Assembly (NCBI GenBank): GCA_029260345.1
Contig: JAJDDK010000002.1
Span: 372,001 to 436,000 of the forward strand
Length of the DNA stretch: 64,000 bases
Origin: Phycisphaerales bacterium
GTDB taxonomy: Bacteria > Planctomycetota > Phycisphaerae > Phycisphaerales > UBA1924
Direction: 5' to 3'
Shown here: positions 7,995-17,237 of the stretch, piece after piece
How the letters are laid out: every line of letters starts with the position of its first letter
Position numbering within the stretch: position 1 is the first letter of the stretch
Position numbers and translations under genes: made by a program
The notes under the pieces: model-generated
Seen by the model: the letters and a program-made list of their open reading frames with translations, nothing else
Told to the model about the DNA's origin: nothing
Database searches by the model: none

Positions 7995-8290
7995 CGAAGA
8001 AATGGCCCCAACCGGAAGCATTTTCGGACGGCGGCCGACGCGCCAAGCGAGGGCCGAAAAGGGAGGCGGAAAACCCGCCAACCATAGGATAGGGCGTCTT
8101 TGGGGCGGGGCGCGTCCTGATTGCGGTGAATCAGGACATTCGCGTGCTGCGTCACCGCTCAAACGAACTTCCCTTCGGCAGTGAAATCGCTCGGAGCCTG
8201 ATCCCAAATAGTCGGGTGAGAAATGAATCGGGTCGCCCTGAAGCGTTGGGCCGCCCGCACCCGTCAGGCCGTTTGGGAAAGGATCAAATC

Positions 8291-9259
8291 ATGATCAGCA
8301 TCGCCAAGGGAGTAGTTCGGATCGCAGTGGTCGGCGGCCTGGTGGTTGGCGCCGGCGCCCTCATCGCAGGGCCGCACCGTGTTCACGCGGTTGGGCAGCA
8401 GTTGCGATCCAAGTTTGTCACAGTGATCGATCGAAACATTGAAGATCCGATCGCAATGCGGGCTCAGCTTCGCGACCTCGAGTCGAAGTATCCGAAGCGC
8501 ATCGCCGATGCTCGCGGCATGCTTGCTGAACTGAACGAACAGATCAAGCAAGTGGAGCGCGATCAGGAAATCAGCGAGCGCGTCGTCGCGCTGGCGCAGA
8601 CCGATTTGAACGAGCTCAAGGATCTCCTTGCCAGAGCCGAACAGGCCCGCGAGGACTATCAGGGCTACGGTCGTCAGATCGTTTCCGTCGCCTTTAACGA
8701 TCAGAAGATGAACGTCGATGAGGCGTACACGCAGGCCAATCGCATTGCCGACACGGTGGTGAGCTATCAGGCTCGCGTCGCCGAGTGCAGCCGCGAACTG
8801 AACCACCTGCAGCAGGATGCGCGTCAGACACAGGGCTTGCTTGCCAAGCTTCAGACGGAGTACACCGACTTCCAGACGCAGCTCGCAGACCTCGACCGCA
8901 AGATCGACACTGTCGCCCGCAAGGAGCGCATGGTGGAGATGATGGCGGACCGTCAGCGCCGCATCGACGAACTGAGCCGTTACAAGGCAGAGAGCCTGGA
9001 TCAGTTCAAGTCGAACATCGCCAGCCGCGTGGCTGAACTCGACGCCCGCCTTGAGAGCCTCTCAGGTCGCGAAGACCGCGTGAGCTACGAAGAACGTGCC
9101 AAGCTTCAGGTGGACACCGCAACGTCCAGCCGTCTGCGCCTCGAGAACACGACATCGATCGAAATCGAGCAGCCGTGGGTTGAGACCGTCATCGGCGATA
9201 AGGATGAGTGCGAGAAAGACTCGAAGGTTGAGTCACACGGACGCGTCGCGATTCGCTGA
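8291..9259 (+). CDS. Secreted or membrane-anchored coiled-coil protein of unknown function
   Basis: The 322-residue product starts at an ATG with an excellent ribosome site (GGGAAAGGA, seven bases away). An N-terminal hydrophobic segment (IAVVGGLVVGAGALIAG) is followed by about 230 residues of heptad-rich, highly charged sequence typical of coiled coils. A short hydrophilic tail ends the protein. It is divergent from the sigma factor and kinase unit and shares a 296-base upstream region with it, so it could be a target of that regulon. I recognise no enzymatic motif; a periplasmic spacer or PspA-like scaffolding role is only a guess. Confidence 0.75.
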   Translation: MISIAKGVVRIAVVGGLVVGAGALIAGPHRVHAVGQQLRSKFVTVIDRNIEDPIAMRAQLRDLESKYPKRIADARGMLAELNEQIKQVERDQEISERVVALAQTDLNELKDLLARAEQAREDYQGYGRQIVSVAFNDQKMNVDEAYTQANRIADTVVSYQARVAECSRELNHLQQDARQTQGLLAKLQTEYTDFQTQLADLDRKIDTVARKERMVEMMADRQRRIDELSRYKAESLDQFKSNIASRVAELDARLESLSGREDRVSYEERAKLQVDTATSSRLRLENTTSIEIEQPWVETVIGDKDECEKDSKVESHGRVAIR

Positions 9260-9289
9260 TTCCACGACACGAAACGACACTGCATGAAT

Positions 9290-9330
9290 CAACCGCCGCG
9301 GGCTGGCTTGCTCGCGGCGGTTGTCGTTTT
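9290..9330 (+). terminator. Intrinsic terminator after the coiled-coil gene
   Basis: Perfect 11-base arms (CAACCGCCGCG at 9290-9300 and its complement at 9313-9323) enclose a 12-base loop and are followed by TCGTTTT. It lies 31 bases after the stop codon of the coiled-coil gene. Confidence 0.85.
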
Positions 9331-9390
9331 GCGAGAAGTGATTCACCGTGGAAAGCGCCGCGGTGGCGCTGCCGCTGATACGCTGGCGAC

Positions 9391-10173
9391 GTGCCTGCGA
9401 TTCGAGATGAAGCCATTGTGCTGCGCCGGTGGGACTGGTCGGAGACGAGCCAGGCAGTGCATCTATTTTGCCGCGAGCATGGCGCCCTGCGCGGACTGGC
9501 CAAAGGTGCCAAACGAGAGAAGAGCGCGTTTAGCGGCGGACTGGAGCCACTGACACGCGGCGAAGTGGGGGCCATTCAGAAACCTTCATCCGAACTCGCG
9601 ACGTTGACGGATTGGGACTTGACGGAGATTTTTCCGGGAGTGCGCGCCAGCGCTCGCGGTTTCCTCGCGGCGCACTACATCGCGGACCTCATTCGACACG
9701 GCGTGCGCGATGCCGACCCGCATCCGGCGTTGTGGTCGGCGACCATTGATGCGCTTCGCTCCATAGGCGATGCAGCCGCCTTGGAAGCCGCGCTTGTCAG
9801 TTTTCAATGGGCGTTGCTCGGTGAGACCGGGTATTGCCCGGACGCGTCGGCGCTGAACGCATCCGCCGATGCGTTGGTGCGCCCTGACGGCGCCTGGGTG
9901 TATGACCCGGAGCGAGGCGTTGTGATTTCGGTGAACGAACGAGTCGGTCAAGAAAATTTCTGGGCGATGCGCACGGACACTGCGGCGTTATTGCTTGCGC
10001 TCAGTCGCCGAGAACCATGGTCGGCAGGACCGGAAACCATCGAGCGTGCGAATCGATTTCTTGCTGCTTGCATTCGCTGGGCGTTTGGCGAGCCGTTGGC
10101 CACCATGGACCGTCTTTTCGGAACGTCCGTATTTGGAACGGCTTCCGTGCGATCCACGGCGTCTGACCGCTAA
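9391..10173 (+). CDS. recO: DNA repair protein RecO
   Basis: RecO loads RecA onto SSB-coated single-stranded DNA in the RecFOR pathway. The 260-residue product has the N-terminal OB-fold opening seen in the family (DEAIVLRRWDWSETSQAVHLF, then GLAKGAKR) and a helical C-terminal domain. The Cys4 zinc site found in some RecO proteins is not evident; only isolated cysteines occur. Translation starts at GTG 9391, close behind the terminator of the preceding gene, with no strong ribosome site. It is followed 103 bases later by the HDOD-GGDEF gene. Confidence 0.85.
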   Translation: MPAIRDEAIVLRRWDWSETSQAVHLFCREHGALRGLAKGAKREKSAFSGGLEPLTRGEVGAIQKPSSELATLTDWDLTEIFPGVRASARGFLAAHYIADLIRHGVRDADPHPALWSATIDALRSIGDAAALEAALVSFQWALLGETGYCPDASALNASADALVRPDGAWVYDPERGVVISVNERVGQENFWAMRTDTAALLLALSRREPWSAGPETIERANRFLAACIRWAFGEPLATMDRLFGTSVFGTASVRSTASDR

Positions 10174-10276
10174 CGCCGCGGGTGAGAAAAGACGATGACC
10201 TTGACGATTACCCGGGGACTCGGGGAGAGATTATCCGCGGCGGGAGTGGCCGCACCAGCGTCTAACGAGGAACGCG

Positions 10277-11794
10277 GTGAACGAACAGCTCCTGCAAAAA
10301 GTGCTTTCGTGTTCGAAGCTCCCCACGCTTCCGACGATCGCCGTGCAGGTCATCGAGATGACCAGCGACGAGAACGTCTCCATGGGCGAACTCGCGAAGG
10401 TCATCGAGTTTGACCAGGGGCTGGCGACCAAAATCTTATCGACGGTGAATTCCGCGTTTTACGGACTGCCAAAGCAGTGCTCCACGCTTTCGCACGCGCA
10501 GTCGCTGCTCGGGCTGGATGCAGTCAAGACGCTCGCACTGAGTTTTTCATTGGTGAAATCGATTCGCGAAGGTGCGGATGAGGATTTTGATTACGAAAAG
10601 TATTGGCGACGAGCCATTTTTTCCGCCGTTGCGGCCAAAGCGGTCGCCTCGATGGTTCGCTGCGGCGACGCAGAAGAAGCATTTCTCGGCGCCCTGCTTC
10701 AGGATCTCGGCCTTATCGCACTCGCGAAAGCCCTCGGTGAGGAATACACGAAAATCGTGCGCGAGTGCGATGTGGACCACCGTTCACTGCTGAAGCGGGA
10801 AATCGCTGAGTTCGAGCTTCAGCATCCGGACATTGGCGCCATGATCGCCGAGCGGTGGCGTCTGCCGGAAGCGCTGCTCATGCCCATCAAGTATCACGAA
10901 CGCCCGACGGCGGCGCCCATGGCATGCCGCGACATCGTGCGATGTGTGGCGCTGGGCAATGTCGTGGCGGACATCCTCACGCAGGAAGACCGCGCCTACT
11001 GGCTCACGCAGTACTACCAGCGCGCCAACCAATGGTTCGGTCTGACGCCGACACAAGCGGATGAAGTCATTGAGACGGTCACGAAGAATGCGCGCGACGT
11101 GGCGCGTCTCTTCGAGATCCCAATGGGCGTGACGCCAAAGTCTGACGAGATTCTCGAACTTGCGACCGAACGGCTTGCCGTGATTGCGTTGCAAGAAAAT
11201 CGCAATGCAATGGAATCCGCCGCAGCGACGGATGAAGCGAAGCGTGCGTTGCAAACTGATTCGCTCACCGGGCTGGGCAGCCGAGCGCTGTTCATGGAGC
11301 GTGTGACGGAATTGTTTGCGCGAGCCAAAGAAGAGGGGCAGGCGATGAGTGTCCTGCTGCTCGATGCGGATCGCTTCCGTGATGTCAACGACACGTGGAG
11401 CGTCGAAATGGGCGACGTCGTTCTGGTTCGATTAGCGCAACGTTTGGCCGGTTTCTTCGAGGAGCACGAAGCGGTTGTGCACCGGTATGGCGGCGAAGAA
11501 TTCGGAGTCGCGATGTTTGGCGTTGATCGCCGCCGTGCGACGCAGCTCGCTGATGAGGTCCGTGCCAGTGTGGCCTCGACGCCTTTTGAGATGGCGGCCT
11601 TTGAGCAGGACAAATCAAACAAAGTGCCCCTGACGATCAGCGTCGGGGTTGCGACGCTGGACGGTGACACCGAGGGCGTCCTGACCCGTGCCGAGCGGGT
11701 GGTGCACGCGGCGGATAAGGCGGTTCACGCCGCCAAGGACGCCAATGGCGACTGTGTGCGCGTTTTCCTGCCGAAGCGACGCAAAGCGGCCTGA
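10277..11794 (+). CDS. HDOD and GGDEF domain signalling protein, probable diguanylate cyclase
   Basis: The 505-residue cytoplasmic protein has an HDOD domain at about residues 5-215 (LPTLPTIAVQVIEM, then LSTVNSAFYGLP) and a GGDEF domain at about 325-500. The active-site loop reads GGEEF at 405-409, which is catalytically competent in the family. The upstream RxxD inhibitory site is missing (the sequence there is EEHEAVVHRY), so product inhibition at the canonical I-site is unlikely. The GTG start has GAGG at a good distance. HDOD proteins usually respond to nucleotide or stress signals; the input here is unknown. Confidence 0.9.
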   Translation: MNEQLLQKVLSCSKLPTLPTIAVQVIEMTSDENVSMGELAKVIEFDQGLATKILSTVNSAFYGLPKQCSTLSHAQSLLGLDAVKTLALSFSLVKSIREGADEDFDYEKYWRRAIFSAVAAKAVASMVRCGDAEEAFLGALLQDLGLIALAKALGEEYTKIVRECDVDHRSLLKREIAEFELQHPDIGAMIAERWRLPEALLMPIKYHERPTAAPMACRDIVRCVALGNVVADILTQEDRAYWLTQYYQRANQWFGLTPTQADEVIETVTKNARDVARLFEIPMGVTPKSDEILELATERLAVIALQENRNAMESAAATDEAKRALQTDSLTGLGSRALFMERVTELFARAKEEGQAMSVLLLDADRFRDVNDTWSVEMGDVVLVRLAQRLAGFFEEHEAVVHRYGGEEFGVAMFGVDRRRATQLADEVRASVASTPFEMAAFEQDKSNKVPLTISVGVATLDGDTEGVLTRAERVVHAADKAVHAAKDANGDCVRVFLPKRRKAA

Positions 11795-11957: not shown

Positions 11958-12806
11958 GTGACGTCACCCGTGAATCCTGAACAGTCCGAACGGACGCACC
12001 TTATGGATGCTGATACGGACGAAACCGTTGCGCCCGTGATTCGTGCGGACCGCGTGGGAGCTGGGGCGCCTGTCGTCTTCTTGCACGGATTGCTCGGGCT
12101 CAAGGAGCATTTCGCACCAGCCGGGAAGGCCCTGTCCAATCGAGCCGAGTGCTGGCTGGTTCAGGCCCCGCTGCTGAGCTTGCGTGGCTCGCAGTGCAGT
12201 GTGGTCGGTGCGACGGAGATGGTCAGCCAGTTCCTCGAAGACAACATGTCTGAACCTGCGGTGCTCGTGGGCAACTCCCTCGGCGGCCACTTGGCGTTGC
12301 GAGTCGCTCTCGATCACCCCGAGCGGGTGCGTGGGCTCGTGCTCGCCGGGTCCTCCGGCCTTTTTGAGCGCACGTTCGAGAAGGACGTTCAGCATCGACC
12401 GAGCCGCGACTGGATTGACCGCAAGATTACGGACCTCTTTTACGACAAGACGCGCATGCCGGCCGGCGTCGTGGACCGTGCGTATGAGGAGCTTTCGCAG
12501 CGCAAGGCGGCACGAGCGCTCGTGCGGCTCTCAAGGACCGCCAAGGCGGATCACATGGGCAGCCGGCTGGCGAGCATTCCTCATCCGACGCTGCTGTTGT
12601 GGGGTCGTCAGGACAACGTGACGCCGCCCAATGTCGCGGAGGAATTCCAGGCGCTTATGCCCAACGCTGAGTTGCGCTGGATCGACAAGTGCGGCCACGC
12701 GCCGATGATTGAACAGCCGGGACCGTTTGCGGAAGGCATCCGCGATTTCCTCGATCGTTTGGGCGTCGAGGCGCCCAGCGCGGAGGCGCGACAGGAGGTC
12801 GCCTGA
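11958..12806 (+). CDS. Alpha/beta-hydrolase fold esterase or lipase-like enzyme
   Basis: The 282-residue protein shows the oxyanion motif HGLLG at 43-47, the nucleophile elbow GNSLGGH with Ser107, an acid residue in LLLWGRQDNVTP, and a C-terminal catalytic histidine in CGHAPMIEQP. No signal peptide is visible. The GTG at 11958 has GGAG six bases upstream; an ATG at 12003 lacks one. The stop is separated by one base from the start of the GH3-family gene, so the two are translationally coupled. The natural substrate is unknown, but the context suggests an acyl ester, thioester or amide. Confidence 0.85.
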   Translation: MTSPVNPEQSERTHLMDADTDETVAPVIRADRVGAGAPVVFLHGLLGLKEHFAPAGKALSNRAECWLVQAPLLSLRGSQCSVVGATEMVSQFLEDNMSEPAVLVGNSLGGHLALRVALDHPERVRGLVLAGSSGLFERTFEKDVQHRPSRDWIDRKITDLFYDKTRMPAGVVDRAYEELSQRKAARALVRLSRTAKADHMGSRLASIPHPTLLLWGRQDNVTPPNVAEEFQALMPNAELRWIDKCGHAPMIEQPGPFAEGIRDFLDRLGVEAPSAEARQEVA

Positions 12807-12807
12807 G

Positions 12808-14415
12808 ATGTCGTGGACGCGCGCGATTGGCGTGGGTCTCCGGGCGCACCTGGCTCGTCGAATCCGATCACTCTCAGATACGGACTATTGGGCAAAGCAC
12901 GCCGCTCGTGTGCAAGAGCGTGAGCTGCGCTGGCTGATCGAACACGCCGCCGACACCGAGTTCGGGCGCAAAGCAAATTTCAATCGATTGAAGCGGCTGA
13001 GCAGCGCGGACCTACTTGACGGGTACCGGGCCGAAGTGCCGGTGCAGTCGTACATGGAGCTCAAGCCACTGCTTGAACGCATGCGCTGCGACGCGGAGCC
13101 AAACGTCGCCTGGCCCGGCATTGTGATGGACTGGGCCCAGACGAGCGGCACGACGGCCGGTGACAAGTACGTGCCGATCAGCCGGGAAATGTTGCGGCAC
13201 AACAGCAAAGCAGCGCTCGATGTGTATGCACACGCGGCGCGATTTGGTTTGTCACTTGGCGACATCTTCGCCGGCAAAGCGCTCTTCCTCGGCGGCTCCA
13301 CCGCGCTGGATGAGAATGAACATGGCGTGCGCACCGGCGATCTGTCCGGTGTCGTGACGCGGCTGATTCGCTGGCCGATCACGAGCGTGTGGCTTCCCGG
13401 GAAAGAAATCGCGCTCGAGTCTGACTGGCCGACCAAAATGGACAAGATGGCCCGCCGCTGCATGAACGCTGACGTGCGCTGGATCAGCGGCATGCCGTCG
13501 TGGTCCATTGTGCTCTTTGAGCGCATGGCGGAACTGGCCCGCGCTGAAGGTCGACAAGTGGATTGCTTGCGCGATCTGTGGCCAAATCTCCGCGTGTTCG
13601 TCCATGGCGGCGTCAAATACGGCCCCTTTGAACGACGCGTCCGTGAGATGTGGTCGGGTGATCTGGATGGCCCAGACATTCCGAATCGGCTTGAGGTGTA
13701 TGCCGCGAGCGAGGCCTTTGTCGCGACCCAAGATGTGCGGGGCGACGCCGGCATGCGGCTCAACATTGACCACCGGATTCACTACGAATTTGTGCCGCTG
13801 TCCGAAATTGATGATCCGGCGCCGCGAGCGTTTGACTGCGCGAGCGTGGAGCGTGGCGAACGGTACGTCGTGGTGATGAGCACCTGCGGCGGGTTGTGGC
13901 GCTACAACATCGGCGACGTGGTGGAGTTCGACACGATTCCGCCGGATGGCCCGCCGCGTTTGCGCATCGTGGGGCGGTCGCGGCTGTTTATGAATGCATT
14001 CGGCGAAAACATCATCGCGGAGCACATCGAGAACGCGGTGACCGACGCGATGGCGACGGTGTCGGCTCGAGTCGGTGAGTTCACGGCGGCGCCCGTGTAC
14101 CCGGCCGAAGGTCGTCAGTCTGGGATCGAACTGGCGATCGAATGGGACGGTCCGACCGACCCAGGCGTCTTGGCGTCATTTGCTGAGCAGTTCGACGCCT
14201 CCATCAAGTCGCAAAACAATGACTACATCGCGAAGCGGTCGGGGGGCCTTGGGATGGGTCTGCCGACCATTACGCCGCTCCCGCCGGGGACGTTTCACCG
14301 ATGGATGGACTCGCGTGGCAAGCTTGGCGGGCAGCATAAATGCCCGCGCTGCTCCAACGACCGCACCATTCTTGAACAAGTCGTCGAATGTGCCTCGGCG
14401 ACCACGGCGATGTAA
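12808..14415 (+). CDS. GH3 family acyl-adenylating amido synthetase
   Basis: GH3 enzymes activate a carboxylate as an acyl-adenylate and transfer it to an amine, often an amino acid. The 535-residue protein carries the family ATP loop TSGTTAGDKYVP from residue 112, the central YNIGDVVEF motif, and the late IVGRSRLFMNAFGENI hinge region. Length is close to plant GH3 proteins, which make amino-acid conjugates of auxin and jasmonate. Bacterial members are poorly characterised. The ATG follows AGGAGG and directly abuts the upstream hydrolase gene. The next gene, 101 bases on, encodes a hydrolase-DedA-ATP-grasp fusion, suggesting a shared acyl-amide or lipid pathway. Confidence 0.9.
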   Translation: MSWTRAIGVGLRAHLARRIRSLSDTDYWAKHAARVQERELRWLIEHAADTEFGRKANFNRLKRLSSADLLDGYRAEVPVQSYMELKPLLERMRCDAEPNVAWPGIVMDWAQTSGTTAGDKYVPISREMLRHNSKAALDVYAHAARFGLSLGDIFAGKALFLGGSTALDENEHGVRTGDLSGVVTRLIRWPITSVWLPGKEIALESDWPTKMDKMARRCMNADVRWISGMPSWSIVLFERMAELARAEGRQVDCLRDLWPNLRVFVHGGVKYGPFERRVREMWSGDLDGPDIPNRLEVYAASEAFVATQDVRGDAGMRLNIDHRIHYEFVPLSEIDDPAPRAFDCASVERGERYVVVMSTCGGLWRYNIGDVVEFDTIPPDGPPRLRIVGRSRLFMNAFGENIIAEHIENAVTDAMATVSARVGEFTAAPVYPAEGRQSGIELAIEWDGPTDPGVLASFAEQFDASIKSQNNDYIAKRSGGLGMGLPTITPLPPGTFHRWMDSRGKLGGQHKCPRCSNDRTILEQVVECASATTAM

Positions 14416-14516
14416 AGCCCGCAAGGCTACGTCCGCGCGAAGGGCGACTATCCTGTGCCGAACGTGTTCCCATTGGCGCTCGCCCCCATGGATTCCGGCC
14501 CGGCTGAACTCTCACA

Positions 14517-17237
14517 GTGCGATTCCTGACGCGCATGAAAAATTGGCTCAATGCGCGACGCAGCCGCTGGCTGATTGTCGTGTACGCGCTGCTGCTCGCC
14601 GCGTCATTGGTGGTGACATCTCTGAACGGGCCGGCGCCCTTTGGCGGCACGCCCCCGGGGTCACAACGACTCGTTGTTGAGACGCCACGATTCGACAGCG
14701 CCGGAGAGGTTGACGGGAAGCCGGTTCGAATCTCAACGCTGGAGTGGACACCGGAGTCGCCCGATCCATCCAAGCCGCCGATGGTGCTGTTGCACGGCAG
14801 CCCAGGCGCCGCGACAAACTTCGAACGGCTGGCGCCGCTTTTGGCGGCCAACGGTCGGCGCGTGATCGCGATCGACTTGCCGGGGTTTGGCGAATCATCC
14901 TCATGGGTTCCTGATTATTCGATCAGAGCGCACGCGAAGTATGCGCTTGCGGCGATGAACGAACTCGACATCGAACAAGCGCATGTGCTTGGCTTTTCGA
15001 TGGGTGGTGGTGTTGGCATCTGGATGATCGACGAAGCGCCTGAGCGCATCCTGAGTTTGACGATGCTGTCGTCGATCGGTGTGCAGGAGGCGGAAGGTTC
15101 GGGCAGTTATTACTTCGAACACGCGAAGTACGCCGTTGGGTATGGCGCTTTGGTGTGGCCGCCGGCGCTTGTGCCGCATTTTGGCGTGCTCGGGACCGCG
15201 GCGGATCGTCACGCGGCTCTGCGCAATTTCTGGGACACCGATCAGCGCCCGATTCGGGAAAAACTGGAATCGATTTCAACACCGACGCTCATTGTGCATG
15301 GCCGGACTGATTTTCTTGTGCCAGCGTGGGGCGCTGAACTCCATCAGGATCTCATCCCCGGCAGTTCGCTGGTGATGCTGGATGCAAGCCATTTCCTGCC
15401 ATTCCTCGGAGATCAGCCCGAGCAGGTTGCGATGCACGTGCGCCCGTTTATTGAACGTCACGACGTGCAAGGCATCACGCCGCTGCGATTCGAAGCCGAC
15501 TTCGAACCCGTCGCGGAAGCTCGCAAGAAACAAATTGACCTTGGACCATTCCACGTCCTGAAGACCACGCCGTGGTGGGTGATGTTCCTGCTGATTATCT
15601 GTGCGACCTGGGTCAGTGAAGACGCGACCGTGATCGCCGTCGGCGTGCTGATTGCGCACGGTCAGATCGATTGGGGCGTGGGGCTGCTGGGGTGTTTCGT
15701 CGGCATCGTGATTGGTGATGGAGGGTTGTGGGCGCTTGGTCGATTTGCCGGACGCCGCGCTTTGCGCTGGCCGCTGGTACGAGATTGGGCGCCGGAGGCA
15801 TCGCTCGATCGGTGGGGGCGCTGGTTTGATGACCACACGATCCAAGCGGTGTTTGTCGCCCGGGCAATTCCCGGATTGCGCTTGCCGACGTATTTCGCGG
15901 CCGGTTTGCTTGCCCGTCGGACCCACGGCTTCTTGTTTTGGGCGGCAATCGCGGCGTTCCTCTGGACGCCAATGCTCTTGACACTTTCATTCTTCCTCGG
16001 TCCGAAGTTGCTTCACACGTTTGAGCGTTATCTCGGCGGCCCGCTGGGCATGGTCGTCAGCATCGTGGTGATTCTGCTGGGCGTCCGCATATTCAGTGGA
16101 CTCTTTACATGGGTTGGACGGCGCAAGTTGATGCGCGATGTGAAACGGGTCGTCTCCAGCGAGTTCTGGCCAAAGTGGGTCTTTTATGCGCCGCTGATGC
16201 CGTGGGTCGCTTGGCAGGCGATGCGGCGCGGCGGCGTGATGACGTTCACGTGCATCAATCCTGATGTGCCCCATGGCGGGGGCGTTGTTGGCGAAAGCAA
16301 GTACGAGATTCTTGAAGGGCTGCTGCCGCAAGCTGAGCCTTGGATCGTGCGCACTCATCTCATTCCTGCCGGTCCTGATGCGCCTGCTCGGGCGGAGGTC
16401 GTCGAAGAACTTGTGCGCAATGACCCGCGACTGGGCGGGTATCCCGTTGTGCTCAAGCCGGATGAATCGCAAATGGGCCACGCATTCAAAGTGGTGCGCA
16501 GCCCGGAAGAAGCATTGCACTACTTCGAAGACATGACGCGGCCGGCTTTATTGCAGGAATTTCACCCCGGGCCCAAGGAAGTCGGTGTGCTTTGGGCGCG
16601 ACGTGTCAACGATGGTGAATTGAGCGCCACCGGGCGCATCGTGTCCATCACACGGAAAGAGTTTCCGGTCATTGTGGGGGACGGTCGTCATACGTTGCAG
16701 CGACTCGTCTGGAGACATCCGCGATTCCGCATGCAAGCGGAGATCTTCCTGCGGCGGTTTGCCGGCGAAATTGATCAGGTGCTTGCGAAGGGTGAAACAA
16801 AGCGTCTAGGAGTTGCGGGCAACCATGCGCAGGGCGCCATGTTCACCGATGGAGCGGACCTCATCACGCCAGAGTTATCCGCCCGCATTGACGAAATCTC
16901 ACGTGGATTCTCAACTGATCATGACTCGCCGCGATCGATTGGCGGTTTTGATTTCGGCCGATTCGACCTTCGCTACACCGACGACGATGCGCTGCGACGA
17001 GGTGAAGGGTTCGCGATCGTTGAGCTCAATGGCACAATGAGCGAATCAACAAACCTGTATGACCCGCACAAGACAGTGTTCTGGTCATACGGCGTGTTGT
17101 TCCGACAGTGGGATTTGATGTACCGGCTCGGCGCTGCGCGAAGGCGTGCCGGGTCACGCCCAATGCGCATTCGCGAATTCCTCTCAGCGATTCGCGATCA
17201 TTTCAAAGGCCGACCGGGTTCGCCGGTGTCTGACTGA
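14517..17237 (+). CDS. Three-domain fusion: alpha/beta hydrolase, DedA/VTT membrane domain, ATP-grasp ligase
   Basis: The 906-residue product starts with a membrane anchor (about 18-36). An alpha/beta hydrolase follows at about 65-315, with HGSPG at 93-97, GFSMGGG with Ser161, Asp265 and His292 as a plausible triad. Residues 351-535 form a polytopic DedA/VTT region with the family-like IGDGG...GRFAG and ARAIPGLRLPTYFAAG motifs. A cytoplasmic ATP-grasp domain spans about 575-850, with Lys647 in VVLKPDE and metal-binding Glu837 and Asn839 in VELNGTMSE. Each part looks intact with no frameshift. GTG 14517 and ATG 14535 are both possible starts; neither has a clear ribosome site. I know of no named family with this order. 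Confidence 0.85.
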   Translation: MRFLTRMKNWLNARRSRWLIVVYALLLAASLVVTSLNGPAPFGGTPPGSQRLVVETPRFDSAGEVDGKPVRISTLEWTPESPDPSKPPMVLLHGSPGAATNFERLAPLLAANGRRVIAIDLPGFGESSSWVPDYSIRAHAKYALAAMNELDIEQAHVLGFSMGGGVGIWMIDEAPERILSLTMLSSIGVQEAEGSGSYYFEHAKYAVGYGALVWPPALVPHFGVLGTAADRHAALRNFWDTDQRPIREKLESISTPTLIVHGRTDFLVPAWGAELHQDLIPGSSLVMLDASHFLPFLGDQPEQVAMHVRPFIERHDVQGITPLRFEADFEPVAEARKKQIDLGPFHVLKTTPWWVMFLLIICATWVSEDATVIAVGVLIAHGQIDWGVGLLGCFVGIVIGDGGLWALGRFAGRRALRWPLVRDWAPEASLDRWGRWFDDHTIQAVFVARAIPGLRLPTYFAAGLLARRTHGFLFWAAIAAFLWTPMLLTLSFFLGPKLLHTFERYLGGPLGMVVSIVVILLGVRIFSGLFTWVGRRKLMRDVKRVVSSEFWPKWVFYAPLMPWVAWQAMRRGGVMTFTCINPDVPHGGGVVGESKYEILEGLLPQAEPWIVRTHLIPAGPDAPARAEVVEELVRNDPRLGGYPVVLKPDESQMGHAFKVVRSPEEALHYFEDMTRPALLQEFHPGPKEVGVLWARRVNDGELSATGRIVSITRKEFPVIVGDGRHTLQRLVWRHPRFRMQAEIFLRRFAGEIDQVLAKGETKRLGVAGNHAQGAMFTDGADLITPELSARIDEISRGFSTDHDSPRSIGGFDFGRFDLRYTDDDALRRGEGFAIVELNGTMSESTNLYDPHKTVFWSYGVLFRQWDLMYRLGAARRRAGSRPMRIREFLSAIRDHFKGRPGSPVSD

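Follow-up and report, generated by a model that had tools for sequence, protein, structure and literature searches.

Which lipid do three adjoining genes of an uncultured planctomycete make, and what does the last of them do with it? The genes lie in the window, the whole 64,000-nucleotide stretch of Phycisphaerales bacterium DNA analysed here (contig JAJDDK010000002.1, positions 372,001 to 436,000). An initial annotation had seen in them a possible undescribed acyl-amide lipid locus, made up of a hydrolase (gene 1), a GH3 ligase (gene 2) and a membrane protein that fuses a hydrolase, a DedA/VTT domain and an ATP-grasp ligase (gene 3). The reading that we prefer, at a probability of about 0.5, is that the locus produces an acyloxyacyl aminolipid of the ornithine-lipid kind and afterwards remodels it, by the mechanism described below. 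It is very likely that gene 3 serves an aminolipid pathway, and it probably serves aminolipids whichever synthase makes them. Gene 3 has the domain content, fold and motifs of such a fusion, and its family is repeatedly associated with three synthase sets, OlsH/OlsI, OlsF and OlsB/OlsA, the last two of which are partly related. Gene 3, a fused lipid-remodelling candidate, is the new part of the locus; the route of genes 1 and 2 is already known in kind. The locus is laid out as follows.

11958..12806, + strand: gene 1, alpha/beta-hydrolase-fold protein, OlsI-like probable O-acyltransferase (282 aa, GTG start)
12808..14415, + strand: gene 2, GH3-family acyl-amino-acid ligase, OlsH-like (535 aa from ATG)
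14416..14516, no strand: intergenic gap of 101 bp, elsewhere the site of DinB and TANGO2 genes
14517..17237, + strand: gene 3, fused hydrolase-VTT-ATP-grasp membrane protein (906 aa, GTG start)

The three reading frames are intact and all lie on the + strand, with 1 base between genes 1 and 2 and 101 bases between genes 2 and 3, as first described. Pfam matches over cut-off are an abhydrolase domain in gene 1, the GH3 N, M and C domains in gene 2, and abhydrolase and VTT domains in gene 3. The domain motifs that had been reported are also present: each of the two alpha/beta proteins has a hydrolase triad, and gene 2 has the GH3 nucleotide motifs. Gene 2 is the one reading frame in the 3.4 Mb host genome that matches PF03321.

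Genes 1 and 2 resemble a system published in 2025. OlsH and OlsI make ornithine lipid in the planctomycete Singulisphaera acidiphila: OlsH, a GH3 protein, uses free fatty acid and ATP to form N-acyl-ornithine, and OlsI, of alpha/beta-hydrolase fold, attaches the second acyl chain (sections consulted of PMC12493201). According to the same sections, the pair is unrelated to OlsF and to OlsB/OlsA (PMC12493201). Gene 2 matches the OlsH family NF052613, the sole NCBIfam family that it matches, at 1.6e-110 and 370.1 bits, under the curated cut-off of 620. Its nucleotide motifs, TSGTTAGDK, YAASE and GLWRYNIGD, stand at residues 111, 298 and 362, and judged against the motifs given in the consulted sections of PMC12493201 it retains all three, including the essential serine. 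Gene 1 matches Pfam Abhydrolase_1 at 3.2e-22 and the OlsI family NF052614 at 1.1e-22 (80.8 bits, second of 33 rows), under the curated cut-off of 385. Its catalytic triad, Ser107, Asp219 and His247, is kept in 23 of 23 aligned sequences, the window included. As in the OlsH operon, a GH3 ligase thus stands next to an alpha/beta-hydrolase-fold O-acyltransferase candidate, here 1 bp away and itself under the OlsI cut-off.

The window proteins are distant from those of S. acidiphila, and their genes, unlike those of that system, have no methyltransferase gene between them. The window GH3 shares 34-37% identity with five OlsH-grade proteins, of which four exceed the cut-off and one reaches 615.8 bits, and it belongs to a separate clade. 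With both curated cut-offs missed as well, the amino acid used by the window GH3 is not fixed as ornithine. Strict membership in OlsH/OlsI was therefore rejected, and so was an undescribed pathway for genes 1 and 2, on the NCBIfam matches and the 2025 paper. In a draw of 294 genomes from the phylum, not one passes the OlsH cut-off; in five Gemmata- or Isosphaera-type genomes that carry gene 3, a GH3 at or near OlsH grade lies outside the fetched stretch, four of them over the cut-off. Genes 1 and 2 are thus distant relatives of OlsI and OlsH, with ornithine as their amino acid unproven. This resemblance agrees with the proposal of an acyl-amino-acid lipid locus, and it removes the word "undescribed" from the gene 1-gene 2 pair. 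It also alters the role of gene 1, which had been taken for a trimming hydrolase; by the precedent of OlsI, an O-acyltransferase is more likely.

Gene 3 has five parts in one chain.

14556..14627, + strand: N-terminal membrane helix, residues 14-37 (helix in the AlphaFold2 model)
14664..15461, + strand: alpha/beta-hydrolase domain with Ser161, Asp265 and His292 (Pfam, residues about 50-315)
15573..16106, + strand: DedA/VTT membrane domain, residues about 353-530 (PF09335, 45.7 bits against a cut-off of 33.9)
16161..16226, + strand: conserved EFWPxWxFYxPL helix between the VTT and ATP-grasp domains (alignment)
16227..17156, + strand: ATP-grasp ligase domain with K647 and ELNG at 836-839 (profile against PDB, domain model)

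The full-length AlphaFold2 model has a mean predicted local distance difference test score (pLDDT) of 89.6 and a predicted template-modelling score of 0.78. In fold searches with the whole model, hydrolase matches take up the list and little is learned outside residues 43-317; the ATP-grasp part was therefore modelled by itself (AlphaFold2, pLDDT 93.2). Its best Foldseek match is cyanophycin synthetase 7txv (8.5e-11), followed by bifunctional glutathione synthetase, LysX/ArgX, synapsin and RimK; VIA-align superposes it on 7wae_A with Z 17.4 and a root-mean-square deviation (rmsd) of 4.3 over 274 residues. The fold is thus closest to ligases that make peptide bonds. A profile of 28 ATP-grasp sequences searched against PDB finds cyanophycin synthase at 2.6e-7. 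The hallmark of the superfamily is a lysine and an E-x-N metal motif, and gene 3 has the fold, the lysine and the motif. The ATP-grasp assignment thus stands, though Pfam gives it 14 bits against a cut-off of 27. Cyanophycin synthetase is the nearest PDB fold and sequence profile, and it has a muramyl-ligase-like domain beside its ATP-grasp domain. Gene 3 differs in that its ATP-grasp domain is fused to VTT and hydrolase domains and neighbours lipid genes; further cyanophycin synthetase domains are absent from its Pfam matches. The closest named relatives of this part, among the best 80 of 228 loci, are Planctomycetota and Phycisphaerales metagenome-assembled genomes.

The hydrolase triad is kept almost throughout the 48 aligned sequences (Ser in 47, Asp in 48, His in 47). 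The best Foldseek match of the domain is the membrane phospholipase A 6i8w (1.9e-12), which VIA-align aligns from model residue 15 onward. VIA-align superposes the domain on 4psu with Z 28.5 and rmsd 2.9 over 256. Matches to the alpha/beta-hydrolase fold are generic. The N-terminus has five K/R and zero D/E in the 15 residues preceding its hydrophobic segment. Such a segment occurs in 42 of 47 gene 3 sequences, and positive charge is greater before it than after it in 44 of 47 (both counts include the window and skip one short fragment). This charge pattern suggests that the hydrolase lies outside and the ATP-grasp domain inside. The VTT domain keeps the SED and R-x-x-PG-x-R motifs; it is like DedA/VTT proteins in the second motif and in its PF09335 score, and unlike them in having a hydrolase on one side and a ligase on the other within one polypeptide. 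In the EFWPxWxFYxPL helix, E549, W551, P552, Y557 and P559 are invariant in 44 sequences.

The function of gene 3 is best approached through its neighbours. Among 151 genomes drawn from the order, where gene 3 was counted at 185 bits or more and weaker matches were dropped (a 26.9-bit GH3 in G055, OlsF fragments in G051 and G124, OlsF below 40 bits), strong gene 3 relatives occur in 65 and OlsH-like GH3 in 47 (one weak match dropped). OlsF or an OlsH-like GH3 is found in 64 of the 65 genomes with gene 3 and in 31 of the 86 without it (Fisher 1.6e-17, kinship uncorrected); OlsF-like and OlsH-like genes occur together in 1 of 151. Gene 3 adjoins GH3 in 9 of the 40 genomes of the window's own family that have both and in G003 of another family, thus in 10 of 151. 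The gene order recurs in other genomes and is thus more than chance. Seven of the 9 linked own-family loci, all from among the 8 linked genomes other than the window's, carry DinB-family and TANGO2-family genes between GH3 and gene 3. The window has neither DinB nor TANGO2 at this place, and its genome has no TANGO2 match. TANGO2, mostly with DinB, remains near GH3 in 7 of 18 own-family loci lacking a nearby gene 3. In 14 loci from genomes without GH3, the fetched stretch holds OlsF in nine, mostly convergent with gene 3, and a DinB-TANGO2-gene 3 run in ten.

A draw of 294 genomes from the phylum, in which GH3 means any GH3, extends this pattern to a third synthase set. The ATP-grasp profile matches 32 genomes, PF13444 (the OlsB/OlsF-type acyltransferase) 48 and GH3 89. 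PF13444 or GH3 is present in 31 of 32 genomes with gene 3 and in 98 of 262 without it (1.7e-11), and outside the window's family PF13444 alone is present in 23 of 25 gene-3 genomes against 25 of 262 (1.4e-18), kinship being uncorrected in both tests. Judged from the match positions, 18 of the 32 genomes have the ATP-grasp match at a distance of about 4.1 kb or less from PF13444; it adjoins GH3 in three (G000, G022, G027), and neither was seen nearby in 11. OlsB, mostly with OlsA, stands beside gene 3 in 15 of 20 distant loci fetched, and the operon in these deep families mostly runs OlsB, OlsA, sometimes DinB or TANGO2, then the fused protein. NCBIfam names both OlsB and OlsA in the four loci tested, under the curated cut-offs.

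These data bear on a different target for gene 3, namely that it aminoacylates or remodels ordinary phospholipids and is co-regulated with aminolipid genes in a response to stress or phosphate limitation. DedA proteins act on several phospholipids, which suits this explanation, and aminolipids respond to phosphate and salinity (parts consulted of PMC12186959). We nevertheless regard it as unlikely, since co-location with several aminolipid synthase sets favours an aminolipid substrate and gene 3 is present in 1 of the 56 order genomes where no synthase was found.

The named loci are the best 80 of 228, and each ends 10 kb from the match or at the contig end, so that partners may have been missed. 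GH3 and OlsI stand beside gene 3 in 13 of them. OlsF is present in 16, at about 2.4 kb or less in 15 and at 9 kb in the other; the two kinds never occur together in the 80. TANGO2 and DinB are each found in 38, and at least one of GH3, OlsF, DinB and TANGO2 in 45. In 22 of the 80 the gene 3 member has VTT and ATP-grasp domains and no hydrolase, and 21 of these 22 keep the same kinds of neighbour. This last count argues against another use for the protein, in which gene 3 would serve aminolipid production by supplying or returning substrate, its hydrolase freeing phospholipid fatty acids for GH3 and its ATP-grasp domain making a soluble amino-acid derivative. The hydrolase's best match, a membrane phospholipase A, would fit this role, as would the use of free fatty acids by OlsH (PMC12493201, in the sections consulted). 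Against it, the fold matches of the hydrolase are generic. The family also adjoins OlsF and OlsB/OlsA, which use acyl-ACP (acyl carrier protein) substrates rather than free acids, and we consider substrate supply rather improbable, below the phospholipid explanation. A tie between loss of VTT and loss of partners was also considered (partners in 44 of 48 VTT-bearing and 1 of 32 VTT-lacking loci) and rejected as independent evidence, because it reflects few tree events (4 independent pairs on well-supported branches).

The tree of the ATP-grasp domain, built without fragment L202, gives a partial correction for kinship: synthase type switches at least twice among its 46 rows of known type. Its OlsB/OlsA class includes L184, L186 and L189, where only an OlsB-like gene was recognised, and L187 and L195, where an OlsB-like frame was found through PF13444. 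The C-terminal half of OlsF resembles OlsB (parts consulted of PMC11631085), and for this reason related enzymes may have fused or been exchanged where the type switches between OlsB/OlsA and OlsF. On the same tree, L130 and L139, contigs labelled Leptolyngbya and Cyanobacteria, cluster with Phycisphaerales metagenome-assembled genomes, and owing to this placement the two records look mislabelled.

Beyond Planctomycetota, the spread of the family is known from plasmid records only, 10 of 28 of which were opened. The whole gene 3 protein matches 107 plasmid records, none covering 80% of the protein; relatives of its ATP-grasp domain occur on the 28, at about 28-33% identity, in seven Pseudomonadota genera. 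In Vibrio sp. THAF191d (L235:7328-13055), seven packed genes on one strand encode VTT, ATP-grasp, DinB, TANGO2, two small proteins and OlsF, and Photobacterium sp. GJ3 has a similar arrangement. Against NF052615, the OlsF proteins of the Vibrio and Photobacterium records score 5e-128 and 3.5e-122, both short of the cut-off. Genes for VTT, ATP-grasp, DinB and TANGO2 are found on two Salinivibrio records, and ATP-grasp, hydrolase and VTT genes occur together on two from Paracoccus; in two from Azospirillum, VTT and ATP-grasp are fused. The ATP-grasp gene of Variovorax, which no VTT match accompanies, is directly followed by an OlsB-like gene; Komagataeibacter has an ATP-grasp gene without those partners. 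PF13444 is found on four of the 10 records, near the ATP-grasp gene in three. The separate VTT, ATP-grasp and hydrolase genes of Pseudomonadota therefore correspond to the domains of one planctomycete protein. That the neighbourhood was kept by descent among non-cooperating genes, to which some flanking genes shared by close relatives would point, is very improbable, given that the association persists across at least two switches of synthase type and that similar arrangements exist as separate genes in another phylum.

The two small genes of Vibrio sp. THAF191d are, from their translations alone, YHS-like and then DoxX-like. In Vibrio cholerae, the proven second OlsF, VCA0646, closes a putative operon of four genes (parts consulted of PMC12186959).

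Several observations weigh against the reading that the window locus makes and then remodels an aminolipid. Gene 3 lies away from GH3 in 31 of the 40 own-family genomes with both, and in all 17 of these unlinked genes that were aligned the VTT domain is divergent, shortened or missing. None of the four partner genes is present in 35 of the 80 named loci. The 31 gene-3-less genomes of the order that hold a synthase show that gene 3 is not required for synthesis. The associations with OlsF and OlsB are not two independent witnesses, because of the OlsB-like half of OlsF noted above. PF13444 is absent from six of the 10 plasmid records, where only the plasmids were searched, and far from the ATP-grasp gene in Paracoccus ferrooxidans. 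The N-termini of the two Paracoccus hydrolases, as annotated, lack a strong membrane segment, and this counts against the hydrolase having to lie outside. At position 653 the ATP-grasp loop has Arg in 78 of 81 sequences and Met in the window and its nearest relative, L103. The initial annotation had tied all three genes into one pathway and held that their separation into unrelated contexts in close relatives would break this tie. Separation in 31 of 40 genomes breaks it in part; gene context supports a functional link of the three genes, and the link persists as a gene 3 family adjoining OlsF or OlsB/OlsA in other lineages.

With these reservations, a remodelling role of gene 3 accounts for the observations as follows. 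By analogy with the proven OlsH/OlsI pair, gene 2 would join a fatty acid to an amino acid, and gene 1 would add a second, ester-linked acyl chain. Gene 3 would work on the finished lipid and not in its synthesis: it most likely acts on the product, since it is found with several synthase sets and many synthase-bearing genomes lack it, and it probably remodels or moves aminolipids because the family, in other bacteria too, often adjoins whichever lipid synthase the species uses. Its cytosolic ATP-grasp domain would attach a further amino acid or amine to the lipid head group through an amide bond, with the conserved aromatic helix probably keeping the domain at the membrane. The DedA/VTT domain would carry the lipid across the inner membrane, and the hydrolase domain, on the far side of the N-terminal helix, would remove the added group or trim the lipid. 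ATP-grasp enzymes of the nearest kinds convert carboxylates to amides, and VTT proteins transport lipids; a hydrolase within the same polypeptide could undo the ligation. In this way we infer the substrate of gene 3, the direction of its ligation, the flipping and the side of the hydrolase.

An established parallel, built from unrelated domains, is the lysyl-phosphatidylglycerol system of the synthase-flippase LpiA and the hydrolase AcvB (parts consulted of PMC13135905). The proposed logic is like that of LpiA/MprF and AcvB/VirJ, with cytosolic addition to the head group, flipping, and removal by an alpha/beta hydrolase. It differs in having ATP-grasp in place of a tRNA-dependent synthase and VTT in place of the MprF flippase fold, in uniting the parts in one polypeptide, and in the proposed aminolipid instead of phosphatidylglycerol. 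No MprF/LpiA synthase or flippase family is among the Pfam or NCBIfam matches listed for gene 3 (25 of 32 for NCBIfam). A wider proposal is more tentative, and we hold it somewhat doubtful: across phyla and independently of the synthase, a peptide-type ATP-grasp ligase would extend the head group of an ornithine-type lipid, a DedA/VTT protein would flip it and a hydrolase would reverse the step, the three being fused in planctomycetes, with DinB and TANGO2 as accessories. The undescribed dipeptide- or amine-capped lipid that would result shares this same doubt, being judged together with the proposal as a whole.

Enzymes that make aminolipids are known; to our knowledge, few are known that extend, flip or degrade them. 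A gene 3 family that tracks different synthase sets is a direct candidate for such steps. The consulted main-text sections of the OlsH/OlsI paper do not mention VTT, DedA or ATP-grasp, and thus no gene 3 (PMC12493201). In the open-licence PMC literature we found no paper tying VTT/DedA, ATP-grasp or TANGO2 to aminolipids or ornithine lipid, and for ornithine lipid together with taurine and a ligase only the OlsH paper. One review that pairs ornithine lipid with ATP-grasp has the latter term in its reference list alone. Human TANGO2 binds acyl-CoA (parts consulted of PMC11867700), and for its bacterial relatives in aminolipid operons no connection to aminolipids was found in the same open-licence literature. 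The operons described here place bacterial TANGO2 beside amino-acid-acylating enzymes, and the cross-phylum proposal, if true, would give this human disease protein a bacterial lipid context. The Vibrionaceae cluster of VTT, ATP-grasp, DinB, TANGO2 and OlsF is more tractable than an uncultured planctomycete.

Some further features of the neighbourhoods were noted. An FtsX/MacB-type permease gene, often with an ABC ATPase, lies at most 4 genes from GH3 in 10 of 18 loci without a nearby gene 3 (L083-L099, L102) and in 0 of 9 loci with one (Fisher 0.009; the genomes are related); this permease may be a stand-in for the VTT transport step. In L073, L075 and L076 (genomes G143, G044 and G040), where gene 3 is unlinked and VTT-poor, the gene immediately upstream of it belongs to a cluster of PF02784-type pyridoxal phosphate-dependent decarboxylases, a label that rests on one scanned member. 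Upstream of the locus in the window (8126-11794), genes of clusters 19, 12 and 7 recur, in variable order, before the aminolipid genes of several same-family genomes, and the cluster 7 gene is HDOD-GGDEF-like, judged from reading its translation.

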